Origin: Methylovirgula sp.
GTDB taxonomy: Bacteria; Pseudomonadota; Alphaproteobacteria; Rhizobiales; Beijerinckiaceae
Direction of reading: 5' to 3'
Assembly (NCBI GenBank): GCA_030036945.1
Contig: JASHSB010000065.1
Coordinates: forward strand, 1-35,808
DNA: 35,808 nt
In this document: piece after piece, positions 1,962 through 9,618 of the stretch
How positions within the stretch are numbered: position 1 is the first letter of the stretch
Layout: the number at the start of each line of letters is the position of its first letter
Translations under genes and position numbers: made by a program
The notes under the pieces: model-generated
The model's database searches: none
The model's input: the letters and a program-made list of their open reading frames with translations, nothing else
What the model was told of the DNA's origin: nothing

Positions 1962-3191
1962 TCACGTCGGCGCATCGATTGCGGGCCTGCGTAGAGCGAC
2001 GAGCATCGGCCCGTAACGGCCGGCAAATATGGCGAAGCTCGCGATCCATAAAATCGCCGAGAAGGCCAGCAGCTGCAGCTGCGGTTCTCCATCGACGAAC
2101 GCGGCCACGATCCGCGTTACCGCCGAGACATTGATCGTTACGTAGAGCAATATCGTGAGTCCGTCCGCTTCGAGGGGCCGGCCGGTGTGGGCGAGAGAGA
2201 CCCGCGTCATTATTGCGAGCGCCATCGTGCCCATCGCGCCGGCGGTAAAGGCGTGGATGCCGGCGGCTAAGGGGAGCGCCGCGTCAAGAAGCGCCGCGCC
2301 GAGCAGCGCCGCGCCGATAACGATCCAAAGATAGCCGACGTGCAGGATAAGAAGCAAAGGCTCGGCGCGCGTCGCGTAGCCGTGCCAGTGCGTGACGTGG
2401 ATGAAGTTGAGCACAGCCGCCAGGAGCAACACGGCGCCGAAAATAGGCTGTCCGGGCGCGACGGCCCAGCCGATCAGGCCGGCGTGGAGCGCTCCTAACG
2501 CAACGCGGTCGAGCAACCCGTGCGTGGCAGGCGGCTTGGCGATGCCGCGTGCCAGCAGCCAGTTGCGCGTGAAGAGCGGAACGATCTTGGTGCCGACGAC
2601 GGAGATCAGAATAACGATCGTCGAAAGGCCCAGGCGCCAACCGAGACCCCGCGGCACGTCGAATCCGCCAACCTGAAGAAACATCAGCAGATCGGCGACG
2701 CACAGCAACGCGACGGGCATCGGCAGGAGGAGGTTGTGCCAGCTTCGCGCCGCAACGATATCCCGAGCGACGACGATACAAAGTGCAGCGGGGAAGGCGA
2801 TATCGAGGACGGCCGCGAGCCAGAGTGGAACGAAAGTTGAGAAGAGACAGGCAATGCGTCCGACGAGCCAGAATGTGACGAGGCACGCAAGCGGCTTGCC
2901 TTGCAGCGGCGCACGACCGGTCCAGTTCGGGATGGCCGTAAGCAGGAAGCCGGCAATCGCCGCGCCCACGTAGCCGAACAGCATTTCGTGGATGTGCCAA
3001 GTCAGTGGATCGAACCGGCTCGGCACGGCGAAGCCGGAGACCAGTATCAAAATCCACAGAAGAACTGTAAGCGCGGACCAAATGCCGGCGGCGAGAAAGA
3101 ACGGCCGAAAGCCCAAGGAAAGAATCGCCGACCGCTCATTCCGCCGCATGCCGTAGCGGGAAATCGACCGGCCGTCCGTAACGTCGCTCAT
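1962..3191 (-). CDS. nnrS: NnrS family membrane protein (NO-related heme/copper protein)
   Basis: 409 aa, many TM segments, N-terminal AILSLGFRPFFLAAGIWSAL and WHIHEMLFGYVGAAIAGFLLTAIPNWTGR typical of NnrS. Confidence 0.9.
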   Translation of the reverse strand: MSDVTDGRSISRYGMRRNERSAILSLGFRPFFLAAGIWSALTVLLWILILVSGFAVPSRFDPLTWHIHEMLFGYVGAAIAGFLLTAIPNWTGRAPLQGKPLACLVTFWLVGRIACLFSTFVPLWLAAVLDIAFPAALCIVVARDIVAARSWHNLLLPMPVALLCVADLLMFLQVGGFDVPRGLGWRLGLSTIVILISVVGTKIVPLFTRNWLLARGIAKPPATHGLLDRVALGALHAGLIGWAVAPGQPIFGAVLLLAAVLNFIHVTHWHGYATRAEPLLLILHVGYLWIVIGAALLGAALLDAALPLAAGIHAFTAGAMGTMALAIMTRVSLAHTGRPLEADGLTILLYVTINVSAVTRIVAAFVDGEPQLQLLAFSAILWIASFAIFAGRYGPMLVALRRPAIDAPT

Positions 3192-3284: not shown

Positions 3285-3307
3285 TAGGTATATATAAAAT
3301 GCATCTT
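3285..3307 (-). promoter_or_regulatory. Candidate NsrR-type operator upstream of nnrS (one strong, one weak half-site)
   Basis: taggtatatataaaATGCATCTT; reverse strand AAGATGCATttatatatacc... matches one half of the AAnATGCAT-N5-ATGCATnTT pattern; located about 95 bp upstream of the nnrS start. Confidence 0.5.
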
Positions 3308-3339: not shown

Positions 3340-3723
3340 TTACTTTTCGGGAGAGTGAGAATTCTTGACCGCGTGGTCGCGTAGATAATCGGCGAGCGCG
3401 ACGGCATTGTTACGTTGACGATCGCGCGCCGCAAAAAGTAAGGTGAGGCGTTCGTGCTTCGCCATTTCAACAAGATCTCGGATCAATACGCTCTGTGCGT
3501 CAAGTTCGCGGCGATAGCGGCGGCAAAACTCGTCCCAGCGTCCCGGTTTATGCCCGAACCACTGGCGGAGCTCGGCGCTGGGCGCGACATCCTTCAGCCA
3601 GACACGCAGCGCAGCGGTTTCTTTCGCGACGCCGCGCGGCCAAATCCGATCGACCAACACACGGGCGCCGTCTTCGGAATCAACCGGATCGTAGATGCGT
3701 TTGGTACAGATTTCGATGTGCAT
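3340..3723 (-). CDS. DUF488 family protein
   Basis: MHIEICTKRIYDPVDSEDGARVLVDRIWPRGVAKETAALRVWLKDVAPSAELRQWFGH; start trimmed from 3882. Confidence 0.8.
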   Translation of the reverse strand: MHIEICTKRIYDPVDSEDGARVLVDRIWPRGVAKETAALRVWLKDVAPSAELRQWFGHKPGRWDEFCRRYRRELDAQSVLIRDLVEMAKHERLTLLFAARDRQRNNAVALADYLRDHAVKNSHSPEK

Positions 3724-3867: not shown

Positions 3868-4311
3868 ATGCGACTCACCCACTATACGGACTATTCCCTA
3901 CGTGTCCTCATCTATCTTAGCCTTCAGCAGGATCGATTGAGTTCGATCCGGGAGATCGCGGACGCCTATGAAATATCCGAAAGCCATCTGATGAAGGTGG
4001 TTCAAGCGCTCGGCCAATTCGGCTACGTGGCGACACTGCGCGGCCGCGGCGGCGGTCTCAAGCTTGCCAAGCCGCCAAGCGAGATCAATCTCGGCGAGGT
4101 CGTACGCAATACAGAAGACGATCTAGCTCTGGTCGAATGCTTCTCAAGCGCCTCGGAGTGCAAAATTGCCGGCCCCTGTCGGCTCACACACGTGCTAAGA
4201 AAAGCACTCGAAGCGTTCCTGCAGGTCCTCGATGAATATACGGTGGCCGATCTTCTGCGGCCAAAATCGAGTTCCTTGAAGGCGAGTCTCGGATTGATAG
4301 CCGCTTCCTGA
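3868..4311 (+). CDS. nsrR: Rrf2 family transcriptional regulator, NsrR-like NO sensor
   Basis: MRLTHYTDYSLRVLIYLSLQQDRLSSIREIADAYEISESHLMKVVQALGQFGYVATLRGRGGGLKLA plus the Cys cluster VECFSSASECKIAGPCRL; ATG at 3868 inside ORF 3454..4311. Confidence 0.85.
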   Translation: MRLTHYTDYSLRVLIYLSLQQDRLSSIREIADAYEISESHLMKVVQALGQFGYVATLRGRGGGLKLAKPPSEINLGEVVRNTEDDLALVECFSSASECKIAGPCRLTHVLRKALEAFLQVLDEYTVADLLRPKSSSLKASLGLIAAS

Positions 4312-4353
4312 GCGGTCTCGACAAATAGCTTGATCGCCGCACGTCCGTATTAT

Positions 4354-4376
4354 AACATGCATACCGTATGCATCTT
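4354..4376 (+). promoter_or_regulatory. NsrR-type operator palindrome upstream of the CuA/heme-copper oxidoreductase operon
   Basis: AACATGCATaccgtATGCATCTT = AAnATGCAT-N5-ATGCATnTT, ending 13 bp before the ATG at 4390, with nsrR directly upstream. Confidence 0.7.
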
Positions 4377-4389
4377 ATAGGGGGACGCG

Positions 4390-4923
4390 ATGATCCAAGA
4401 CGTGGTGTGGGACGTTTCAATCGCGCTCATGGGATCGCTCGCCGCGGTGTTTGCCGGCGTGGCGGCGGGCGCCGAAGTTCCCCTGACGAATTACGGCCCG
4501 GCGATCGCATCCGCCTATCGCCTGCGAACCTGGCTCTTCGCGTTGGCGGTCGTCGTTCTCGTCGGCGTGAATTATCGCGCCCTTGGTGCGCTGCCTTACA
4601 TAGCGAACCCCGCCGAACAATTGGGCTTGGCGGTAAAGCGCGCCGATGCGAGCGGTCAACAATGGTCGTGGACGGTTCAGCCCAATAGTTTCGTGGTCGG
4701 CCAGACCGTCGAATTCTACGTCACCAGCAAGGACGTGAACCACGGCTTCGGACTTTACGATCCGCACATGCACCTGGTCGCCCAAACGCAGGCGATGCCG
4801 GGTTTTACTAACGTCCTGCGCTACACGTTCACCGAGGCCGGAACTTATCAGGTTCTGTGCCTCGAATATTGTGGGCTCGGACATCACCTCATGAACACGC
4901 AGATCAACGTCGCCGCGCACTAA
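4390..4923 (+). CDS. CuA-containing subunit II of a heme-copper oxidoreductase
   Basis: Two predicted N-terminal TMs, then a cupredoxin domain; CuA ligands H118 (DVNHGF) and C157-L-E-Y-C161-GLG-H165-HL-M168. Confidence 0.88.
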   Translation: MIQDVVWDVSIALMGSLAAVFAGVAAGAEVPLTNYGPAIASAYRLRTWLFALAVVVLVGVNYRALGALPYIANPAEQLGLAVKRADASGQQWSWTVQPNSFVVGQTVEFYVTSKDVNHGFGLYDPHMHLVAQTQAMPGFTNVLRYTFTEAGTYQVLCLEYCGLGHHLMNTQINVAAH

Positions 4924-4947
4924 GCCGGTGCGGCCGGGGAGGACGCC

Positions 4948-6402
4948 ATGACCGGTATCGAAGCTGTCGGAAGCCGCAGCAGGATCAATGCAACCGCCGC
5001 GGTACGCGCCTATCTCGCGACCTGCGGGATCGTTCTCTTGCTGATGATGTTGCTCGGACTGACCATGCGGCTCGCGCAGGCGCAGTGGATCGATGTCGAG
5101 CCAAATTTATTCTACGTCGTCATGACGATGCATGGCGCTGGAATGGTCGGCATTGCCGGCCTCGGGGGCGCCGCCGTGATGTGGCACTTCGTTCGTCGCT
5201 ATGTCCCGGTCAGCACCGCTATTTTCGTCGCCAATCTTGTCTTCTTCCTGATCGGCGCGGCGCTGATTCTCGGCGCCGGGTTCATCGGTGGCTTCGCCGG
5301 CGCGTGGACCTTCCTGTATCCGCTGCCGGGCCATTCCGGCGGCCTGTGGTCCGCGAACGGCGCGGCCGCCTATATGGCGGGCCTCCTGGTCATCGGCGTC
5401 GGCTTCCTGCTGCTCCATCTCGACATCGCGCGCGGCATCATCTCCATCTATGGCGGTCTCGGCGCCGGGCTCGGCGTCAAGCAAGCCTTCGGCTTCGCGC
5501 CGGAGAAGGATGGGCCGCCGCCGGCGGTCGCCGCTGCGACCATGGCGGCAATCTCTAACGTCATCGGTATTGTCGTCGGCGCTGTCGTGCTGATTCTGTC
5601 GCTCGTCAATCTCTATGCGCCGAGCTTCACATTCAACACGTTGGCAGCGAAGAATTTGATCTATTATTTCGGTCACACGTTCATCAACGTGACGATCTAC
5701 ATGGCGGTTATCGCTGTATATGAAATTCTGCCCGTCTACACGCATCGGGCCTGGAAAACGAACCGCGTTTTCTACCTCGCTTGGGTGCTTTCGACGTTGA
5801 TGGTGCTGACTGTCTATCCGCATCACTTACTGATGGACTTCGCCATGCCGACCTCGATCCTCGTCGCCGGCCAGATCATCTCCTGGCTGAGCGGCCTGCC
5901 GGTGCTACTCGTCACGGCTTTTGGAGCTTTGACCAACGTTTATCGATCCGGCCTCAAATGGGACGCGGCGGCGGGGTTGGTCTTTATGGGCGTCGCCGGT
6001 TGGGCGATCGGCATCATTCCCGCCGTTGCCGACGGAACTATCCCGGTGAACAGCGTCATGCACAATACGCAATGGGTACCCGGTCATTTCCATACCTATC
6101 TCCTGCTTGGCATGATGGCGATGATGCTCGGTTTCATGACCTATTTGGCCGGTCCGAAATCGCCTTCCCACCTGGCGCCGGCAGGGGTGTGGCTTTACCT
6201 CATTGGCGGCACGACCTTCGTCCTTGCCTTTCTCGCCGCCGGCAGCGCCAGCGTCCCGCGTCGCTATGCGGTGCACTTGCCCGCGTGGCTTGCCTATGAT
6301 CGCGCCGGATCGATCGGAGCGAGCCTTGCGGTCGCGGGCGCATTGATCCTGATCGTACGATTTCTCGTTTCGTTGCGATCGCCAATCGACGCCACGCCGT
6401 GA
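4948..6402 (+). CDS. Heme-copper oxidoreductase subunit I lacking the active-site tyrosine; putative CuA-type NO reductase
   Basis: 484 aa polytopic; heme/Cu ligands H62 (MTMHGAG), H243 (YFGHTFIN), H292-H293 (YPHHLLMD), H380 and H382 (VPGHFHTY). Position H243+4 is Asn247 instead of Tyr. Confidence 0.85.
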   Translation: MTGIEAVGSRSRINATAAVRAYLATCGIVLLLMMLLGLTMRLAQAQWIDVEPNLFYVVMTMHGAGMVGIAGLGGAAVMWHFVRRYVPVSTAIFVANLVFFLIGAALILGAGFIGGFAGAWTFLYPLPGHSGGLWSANGAAAYMAGLLVIGVGFLLLHLDIARGIISIYGGLGAGLGVKQAFGFAPEKDGPPPAVAAATMAAISNVIGIVVGAVVLILSLVNLYAPSFTFNTLAAKNLIYYFGHTFINVTIYMAVIAVYEILPVYTHRAWKTNRVFYLAWVLSTLMVLTVYPHHLLMDFAMPTSILVAGQIISWLSGLPVLLVTAFGALTNVYRSGLKWDAAAGLVFMGVAGWAIGIIPAVADGTIPVNSVMHNTQWVPGHFHTYLLLGMMAMMLGFMTYLAGPKSPSHLAPAGVWLYLIGGTTFVLAFLAAGSASVPRRYAVHLPAWLAYDRAGSIGASLAVAGALILIVRFLVSLRSPIDATP

Positions 6403-6983
6403 CCCGCGGCTTTGCCCTTCTTCTCGGCCTCGTGTTGTGTGTGGGGGTTGGCGCGCTTGCCTGGGCTACGGAAGGATTTCGCGTCATCACGAGCCAAGGC
6501 GCGCGGCAGCTTTCGATCGCGCGCCATCCGATTCCAGTCCCGAACGTGCGGCTCGTCGATCAGGACGGACATACATTCTCCTTCGCCGATTATCGCGGCA
6601 GAACAATTCTTGTCGATTTCATCTATACGCGCTGCCCGAGGCTTTGCGGCGTGCTCGGCGACGATTTTCGCCAGGCCTTCTCGCGATCCGATGCCAAGAA
6701 CGACCGCGTTGCGTTCCTCAGCATCAGTTTCGATCGGGCCGACGACCGTGACACGCTGCGATTTTATGCCGATCGCTATGCGGCGAAGACGCCGGGCTGG
6801 CGCGTCGCGATGCCTTGCGACGCACACGGTCTTTCGACATTGTTGCAAACATTCGGGATTACCGTCATCTCCGACGGCATGGGCGGATTCGTGCATGACG
6901 GCACGATCTATCTCGTGGACGAAAGCGGACGCCTTGCTCGTATCCTCGATCCCGGTACACGCATTGCGGCAGGGCATCCATGA
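6399..6983 (+). CDS. SCO1/SenC family copper chaperone / thioredoxin-like protein
   Basis: GTG start overlapping the upstream stop (GTGA); DFIYTRCPRLCGVLGDDF (CxxxC) and distal His GGFVHDGTIYLVDESG. Confidence 0.88.
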   Translation: MTRGFALLLGLVLCVGVGALAWATEGFRVITSQGARQLSIARHPIPVPNVRLVDQDGHTFSFADYRGRTILVDFIYTRCPRLCGVLGDDFRQAFSRSDAKNDRVAFLSISFDRADDRDTLRFYADRYAAKTPGWRVAMPCDAHGLSTLLQTFGITVISDGMGGFVHDGTIYLVDESGRLARILDPGTRIAAGHP

Positions 6984-7591
6984 ATACGACGCGCGCGTTG
7001 GTCCCCGTCGCTTGGGGGATGCTGTGGATTGCGCGCGCGCCGCTCGAACACGAAATGGCGCTGCATATGGCCGTGCAGCTGCCCTTGCTGATCGGCGTTG
7101 GCTATATGCTCGCGACCTTTTTGCGCCCGTATGAACCGCGCTGGTTCGCCGAGTCCGACTGGCTCGGTATTCCCGGGCTGCTGCTCGTCGTTTTTGCGAC
7201 ATCCTTCTGGATGTTGCCGCGCATGCTCGACTTGGCGCTCTCCGAGCCTTGGATCGACTCCGCCAAGTTCGCAAGCTTGCCCTTGCTTGCCGGCTTGCCT
7301 TTGGGCTCGAGCTGGCCCCGGATGCCGGGACTTGGCCGCGCCTTCCTGTGGGCGAATTTTATTCCGAAGCTTGGCGCCATCGGCGGCCTTTACCTTGCCG
7401 CCCCGACGCGACTTTGCGCCTACTACCGACTGGACCAGCAGGCGGCCGCCGGCATTGCACTGATCGCGGTCGCGATCGTGCTTGGGACTTGCTGGTCTGT
7501 CATCGTGTTTGTCGGATCGCCGCCGTTCTGGTCGCGAGCCGGCATACGGCGGCAACGCGCGCGGCACGAAATTCTCGAGGCCGGCGAATGA
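6980..7591 (+). CDS. Polytopic membrane protein in the NOR-like operon, possible CtaG-like assembly factor
   Basis: ATGA overlap with the SCO gene; multiple hydrophobic segments; LEHEMALHMAVQLPLLIGVGYML is His/Met-rich and resembles the CtaG (caa3) motif. Confidence 0.6.
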   Translation: MNTTRALVPVAWGMLWIARAPLEHEMALHMAVQLPLLIGVGYMLATFLRPYEPRWFAESDWLGIPGLLLVVFATSFWMLPRMLDLALSEPWIDSAKFASLPLLAGLPLGSSWPRMPGLGRAFLWANFIPKLGAIGGLYLAAPTRLCAYYRLDQQAAAGIALIAVAIVLGTCWSVIVFVGSPPFWSRAGIRRQRARHEILEAGE

Positions 7592-8040
7592 CGAACGATG
7601 CTCTTGCCGCGGCGGCGCGCCGCGCGGCACTTACCGCGCAAATCCAGACGGCGACCGGAATCGACGAGCCGACGATTGCGCGCCTTGTCCGCGCCTTTTA
7701 CGCGCGCGTACGCGAAGACTCAGAAATCGGTCCCATTTTCGCGGAGCGGATCGAGGATTGGGAACCGCACCTCGAGCGGATGTGTGCCTTCTGGTCTTCC
7801 GTGGCTTTGATGAGCGGGCGTTACCATGGCAGCCCCATGCAGAAACATTTGCCGTTACCGATCAGGGCGCGGCATTTCGATCGTTGGCTGGCGCTGTTCG
7901 AAACGACCGCGCAAGAACAATGCCCGCCGGAAGCGGCGAAACATTTCATCATGCTCGCCCATCGGATCGCCGAGAGCCTGGAACTCGGTCTCGCCGGCGC
8001 CAAAGGAGTGATTTTGGAACGCGGCCAGCGCTTCGTCTGA
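7588..8040 (+). CDS. Group III truncated hemoglobin
   Basis: ATGA overlap with the upstream gene; IARLVRAFYARVREDSEIGPIFAERIEDWEPHLERMCAFWSSVALMSGRYHGSPMQKHLPLPIRARHFDRWLALF typical of trHb group III. Confidence 0.88.
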   Translation: MTNDALAAAARRAALTAQIQTATGIDEPTIARLVRAFYARVREDSEIGPIFAERIEDWEPHLERMCAFWSSVALMSGRYHGSPMQKHLPLPIRARHFDRWLALFETTAQEQCPPEAAKHFIMLAHRIAESLELGLAGAKGVILERGQRFV

Positions 8041-9105: not shown

Positions 9106-9618
9106 TCATTGCATCTTCATGCCGCCCATCCCGCGCATCGCTCCGCCTGGGCTCATCGCGCCCATGCTACCGGCGGCCTTGAAGGCGATGTCCACTTTCC
9201 CGGCTTTCTCGAACGTCAGCGTCGCGTGAATTACGTCGCCGGATTTCACGGGATGTTTGATATCGACGAACATGATGTGATCGCCGCCGGGTTTCAGCGC
9301 GACGGTTTTGCCGGCCGGAATGGCGAGCCCCTCGGGCAGCTCGCGCATTTCCATCACGCCGTTTTCCATCTTCATCGTGTGGATCTGCGTCTTGGCGGAA
9401 ATATCGGAAGTGACCGAGACAAGCCGGTCGGACACGTCGCCGGAATTGACGATCGTCACGTAGCCGGCGGCGACGGTTGAACCGCCCGGCGTCGGCCGGG
9501 CGAAAGCGTTCTCGATCTTCAGCGATCCGAGGCTGACGGCGTTCGCCGCCAGCCTCAATGAAACCGGCGCCGCGACGAGAATTAAGGCGAGCGTGCAGCC
9601 GGCCAACGTTTGTTTCAT
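9106..9618 (-). CDS. Copper chaperone PCu(A)C
   Basis: Signal peptide; ENAFARPTPGGSTVAAGYVTIVN...IHTMKMENGVMEMRELPEGLAIPAGKTVALKPGGDHIMFVDIKHPVKSGD; Met/His-rich C-terminus MGGMKMQ. Confidence 0.9.
   Translation of the reverse strand: MKQTLAGCTLALILVAAPVSLRLAANAVSLGSLKIENAFARPTPGGSTVAAGYVTIVNSGDVSDRLVSVTSDISAKTQIHTMKMENGVMEMRELPEGLAIPAGKTVALKPGGDHIMFVDIKHPVKSGDVIHATLTFEKAGKVDIAFKAAGSMGAMSPGGAMRGMGGMKMQ

Follow-up and report, generated by a model that had tools for sequence, protein, structure and literature searches.

The norS-norY-senC-orf1 operon described here probably encodes an sNOR that reduces NO under the control of an NsrR-like, NO-sensing repressor. The operon lies in the window, i.e., the whole stretch of DNA that was analysed (35,808 nt of Methylovirgula sp., contig JASHSB010000065.1, assembly GCA_030036945.1). 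Judged by its sequence, NorSY is an sNOR, and the locus is one more member of a family already described. The substrate of sNOR, NO or O2, is debated in the literature, and to this debate the predicted NsrR-type dyads in front of norS and the half-site in front of nnrS add a new and independent line of support for a role in NO metabolism.

The genes are arranged in the order NsrR-like regulator, norS, norY, senC, orf1, and trHb, with the DUF488 gene and nnrS transcribed divergently (Table 1). Both norS and norY were found where the initial annotation had placed them, and the proteins that it had named NsrR, NnrS, and truncated hemoglobin in the same cluster match Pfam Rrf2, NnrS, and Bac_globin, respectively. 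The CxxxC motif and the His of SenC are conserved in the 77 sequences aligned. Orf1 has no Pfam match, but its gene follows senC in nearly all fetched loci; in the window it overlaps trHb by four bases. A second copy of trHb, in a sister Methylovirgula locus, is 87% identical. The DUF488 gene is also kept in the sister genome (L036) and is present in another locus (L027). A gene for a PCu(A)C copper chaperone (Pfam PCuAC, 9106-9618), possibly serving CuA assembly, is situated near the cluster.

Table 1. Features of the sNOR locus, with positions in the window.
Feature	Position	Strand	Basis
NnrS, NO-response membrane protein	1962..3191	-	Pfam NnrS 351 bits; NsrR-type half-site upstream
NsrR-type half-site AAAATGCATCTT, upstream of nnrS	3285..3307	.	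17/22 consensus positions
DUF488-family protein	3340..3720	-	Pfam DUF488-N3i 144 bits; between nnrS and nsrR
Rrf2-family regulator, NsrR-like (Asp8, three Cys)	3868..4311	+	Pfam Rrf2 131 bits
NsrR-type operator-like dyad AACATGCATAC-C-GTATGCATCTT	4354..4376	.	13 bp before norS ATG
norS, CuA subunit II	4390..4923	+	Pfam COX2 27.8 bits; conserved CuA ligands
norY, heme-copper subunit I, sNOR type, Asn247 for Tyr	4948..6402	+	Pfam COX1 153 bits, E 1.4e-44; alignment, tree
senC, SCO1/SenC copper-site assembly protein	6399..6983	+	Pfam SCO1-SenC 49 bits
orf1, 203-aa conserved membrane protein of the norSY-senC-orf1 cluster	6980..7591	+	
trHb, truncated hemoglobin	7588..8040	+	Pfam Bac_globin 34 bits

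We aligned NorY with A-family, C-family, cNOR, qNOR, and Thermus thermophilus ba3 sequences. His62, His243, His292, His293, His380, and His382 all fall in ligand columns, and these six heme/CuB histidines are present in every covering row of the family alignment (80 relatives plus the window). The Tyr that marks A- and B-type O2 reductases, which sits on TM6 at the CuB His +4 position, is replaced by Asn247; the same column holds Tyr in all A-family rows and in ba3, Gly in cbb3, and Glu in cNOR and qNOR. The Tyr that marks cbb3 oxidases, six residues ahead of the His pair on TM7 (Tyr in CcoN), is replaced by Val286. The Glu motif of cNOR and qNOR, HLWVEGVWE, is absent from NorY in the alignment. 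Among the best 80 relatives and the window, Asn247 occupies 80 of the 81 rows, the remaining one (L042) reading X, and Val286 occupies all 81. Since both residues and the ligands recur family-wide, they form a signature of the family rather than a sequencing error. In NorS, every one of the CuA ligands His118, Cys157, Glu159, Cys161, His165, and Met168 is retained by 93% or more of the 80 sequences aligned; together with the Pfam COX2 match, they identify NorS as the cupredoxin subunit II that characterizes sNOR. The initial annotation had named the six histidines, Asn247, Val286, the missing cNOR/qNOR motif, and a complete CuA site, and each of these claims stands in the alignments.

Two other positions of NorY deserve mention. 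Tyr251 (His243+8; window 5698-5700) is invariant in 81 of 81 rows and aligns with the second Glu of cNOR and qNOR. At position 296 (window 5833-5835), which follows the second His of the pair by three residues, NorY has Met, as do most sNORs, whereas the Ruegeria-type and several same-order copies have Gln, which suggests two sNOR subgroups.

The regulator carries Asp8 and three Cys, which are conserved in 29 aligned sequences; Asp8 of NsrR is a ligand of the Fe-S cluster. Its scores lie below both NCBIfam cut-offs, with RirA (147.2 bits; cut-off 193) slightly above NsrR (134.6 bits; cut-off 182). The dyad before norS, which resembles the E. coli NsrR site, sits within an inverted repeat (4351-4379) that is 93% complementary. 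A search of the window with the E. coli NsrR consensus itself, allowing three mismatches at most, gave no match, whereas a looser dyad scan found matches. Half-site matches in the window number four, all of them before norS or nnrS, against 0.22 expected, and when the stretch was shuffled 2000 times with its dinucleotides preserved, the score of the nnrS half-site was never reached.

Across the family, the dyad is commoner where such a regulator gene is close by. Among loci with enough upstream sequence, and with a threshold of at least 15 of the 22 positions of the E. coli NsrR consensus, norS is preceded by a dyad in 22 of the 27 that have an NsrR-like gene in the vicinity vs. 6 of the 50 that have no such gene there (Fisher p 1.7e-9, a significance overstated by the relatedness of the loci); 0.9% of dinucleotide shuffles reach 15. 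All 13 of the nearest alphaproteobacterial loci tested have the dyad. NsrR-type control of sNOR is probably widespread outside the ammonia oxidisers, in alpha- and gammaproteobacteria. If so, sNOR would be chiefly a dedicated NO-detoxifying reductase, which speaks against its being an oxidase.

Taken together, these features outline how the system may work. NO would attack the Fe-S cluster of the NsrR-like protein and free the operator at 4354-4376. CuA of NorS, with a c-type cytochrome as its probable donor, would accept electrons and pass them to the low-spin heme (His62/His382) and on to the high-spin heme (His380) and CuB (His243, His292, and His293), where NorY is predicted to catalyze 2 NO + 2 e- + 2 H+ -> N2O + H2O. 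Because the ligands of CuA, the low-spin heme, and the heme/CuB centre are all intact, electron transfer to a gas-binding site is plausible, and the oxidase Tyr would be dispensable because NO reduction uses only two electrons. SenC, and possibly Orf1, may act in copper insertion or assembly. We infer NO as the substrate, the electron donor, NO sensing by the regulator, and the lack of proton pumping; among biochemically characterised NORs there are only cNOR, qNOR, bNOR, and eNOR, while sNOR is proposed and unpurified (PMC11388526).

The genomic surroundings bear on this role. In the sister Methylovirgula MAG JOPF170 (JASHUD010000040.1), the sNOR cluster has two further genes between orf1 and trHb, one for a qNOR (PF22085 NorB cytochrome c-like domain plus COX1) and one for a CopD-like protein; the window has neither. 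NorY and an A-type oxidase are the only HCOs of the own genome (85% complete), and nirK was not found in this 85%-complete MAG. A Cytochrom_D1 match considered for NirS was weak and broken and is not NirS. With no nirK and no NirS match, NO would come from outside the cell or from another source, and with only two HCOs and no nirK, NO detoxification appears a more likely role of NorSY than full denitrification.

A high-affinity O2 reductase, kin of the B-type oxidases, that tolerates NO and is used under low-O2, NO-rich conditions, is an unlikely alternative. In N. europaea, sNOR transcripts rise 2.7- to 10.8-fold under O2 limitation, and such a role has been argued from there (PMC6967387); the ba3 oxidases also make up most of the PDB sequence matches of NorY, whose AlphaFold model (mean pLDDT 84, pTM 0.88) has the fold of HCO subunit I and superposes on solved oxidases with a TM-score of ~0.8. 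However, the Tyr presumed necessary for O-O bond cleavage is missing family-wide at both known positions, and its loss argues against four-electron O2 chemistry. The NsrR-type sites in the promoters and the NO-gene neighbours argue for NO as the substrate, and the qNOR in the sister cluster also weighs against an oxidase. It is considerably less probable that O2 chemistry is kept by a Tyr elsewhere, either Tyr251 or Tyr290, two residues before the His pair. The invariance of Tyr251 would fit such a substitute, but in the model one continuous helix (231-265) holds both His243 and Tyr251, two helix turns apart, and Tyr290 is Phe in 32 of the 81 sequences.

Gene order, the sequence identity with the NorY of Nitrosospira, and the Asn signature together assign the putative NO reductase to sNOR specifically. 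A scan of a genome collection gave at least 537 relatives, of which the best 80 were kept. Among the matches listed, the closest NorY is from a Methylovirgula MAG (94%); in the best 80 of at least 537, the next closest are from Beijerinckiaceae, Xanthobacteraceae, and other alphaproteobacterial MAGs (76-80%), and the copies of Nitrosospira multiformis, N. briensis, and Nitrosovibrio are 56-57% identical. The other complete HCOs of the N. multiformis genome are A-family or cNOR, so its 57% copy is norY. The NorS-NorY-SenC-Orf1 order recurs in nearly all fetched loci, and norSY-senC-orf1 is the arrangement in which ammonia oxidisers carry their sNOR genes (PMC4940428, PMC3772326, PMC6967387); in Nitrosococcus oceani an NsrR/SenC/NorY/NorS neighbourhood is described (PMC3772326). 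NORs are predicted to have the Tyr replaced by Glu, Gln, Asp, or Asn (PMC3475470), and sNOR has Asn in place of the cross-linked Tyr (PMC8756737 Table A4). Matches, with the own genome counted each time, occur in 11 of 199 sampled genomes of its order and in 6 of 399 of its phylum.

In a tree built from about half of the protein, with ba3 and Thermomicrobium rows as long branches and without eNOR, gNOR, nNOR, or bNOR references, all sNOR rows, those of the window, Nitrosospira, and Ruegeria pomeroyi among them, form a single group (89/97), separate from the A-family (100/99) and from the C-family with cNOR/qNOR (99/96). Haloarchaeal plasmid matches, tried as B-family references, proved to be A-type (GHPEVY). 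A related HCO on a Thermomicrobium roseum plasmid (L134, 3317-4801), annotated as cbb3 subunit I, also has Asn (GHTLVN); it branches beside sNOR and has no adjacent SenC annotated. The initial annotation had proposed a non-canonical NO reductase, possibly from the eNOR, sNOR, gNOR, or nNOR family or a relative; of these it is sNOR, and in the tree as sampled NorY lies outside the A- and C-families.

It is scarcely credible that NorSY should be placed in a different Tyr-less family (bNOR/CuANOR, nNOR, eNOR, or gNOR) or in a family of its own. Asn for Tyr is also found in bNOR (PMC8756737, PMC3475470), but at this position eNOR carries Gln and gNOR carries Asp (PMC8756737), and it is with the sNOR of ammonia oxidisers that NorY shares 57% identity and the norSY-senC-orf1 order. 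NorY is a short subunit I, and hydropathy gives NorS two hydrophobic helices at its N-terminus; in both respects NorSY is like the shorter B. azotoformans type II enzyme (PMC3475470) and unlike the bNOR of that species. A new family was rejected on the grounds of identity, synteny, and the Asn mark.

Annotation usually labels sNOR genes as cytochrome oxidases, so the N2O-producing potential of soil alphaproteobacteria is missed. Such mislabelling had been anticipated in the initial annotation, and the Ruegeria pomeroyi homologue is in fact a 'cbb3-type cytochrome c oxidase subunit I' in RefSeq. The window locus would offer a clean test case, as sNOR is the sole NOR-type enzyme found in the 85%-complete genome.

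Compared with known systems, the locus shares with the sNORs of Nitrosospira, Nitrosomonas, and Nitrosococcus the gene order, the Asn, the CuA subunit II, and the SenC and Orf1 partners. Unlike in the ammonia oxidisers, the window comes from a Beijerinckiaceae-like lineage and has the NsrR-type gene, the operator-like dyad, NnrS, DUF488, and trHb clustered together; the fetched Nitrosospira loci have no adjacent NsrR gene and no dyad scoring at least 15 before norS. The sNOR on the megaplasmid of Ruegeria pomeroyi DSS-3 has the same Rrf2-CoxII-NorY-SCO-hypothetical order at 53% identity and a group III truncated hemoglobin nearby, but it adjoins a cbb3 operon and a formate/nitrite transporter and has Gln where NorY has Met296; 'Silicibacter' is among the listed sNOR hosts (PMC8756737). 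In the case of Bacillus azotoformans, bNOR/CuANOR resembles NorSY in its CuA subunit II, Asn for Tyr, and SenC in the cluster (PMC3475470), but, compared by description, it has a longer subunit I, a single-helix subunit II, and an extra 46-aa peptide. The B-type ba3 oxidase of Thermus thermophilus, the best PDB sequence match, aligns with NorY at the CuB and heme histidines but has the cross-linked Tyr (GHPIVY) where NorY has GHTFIN.
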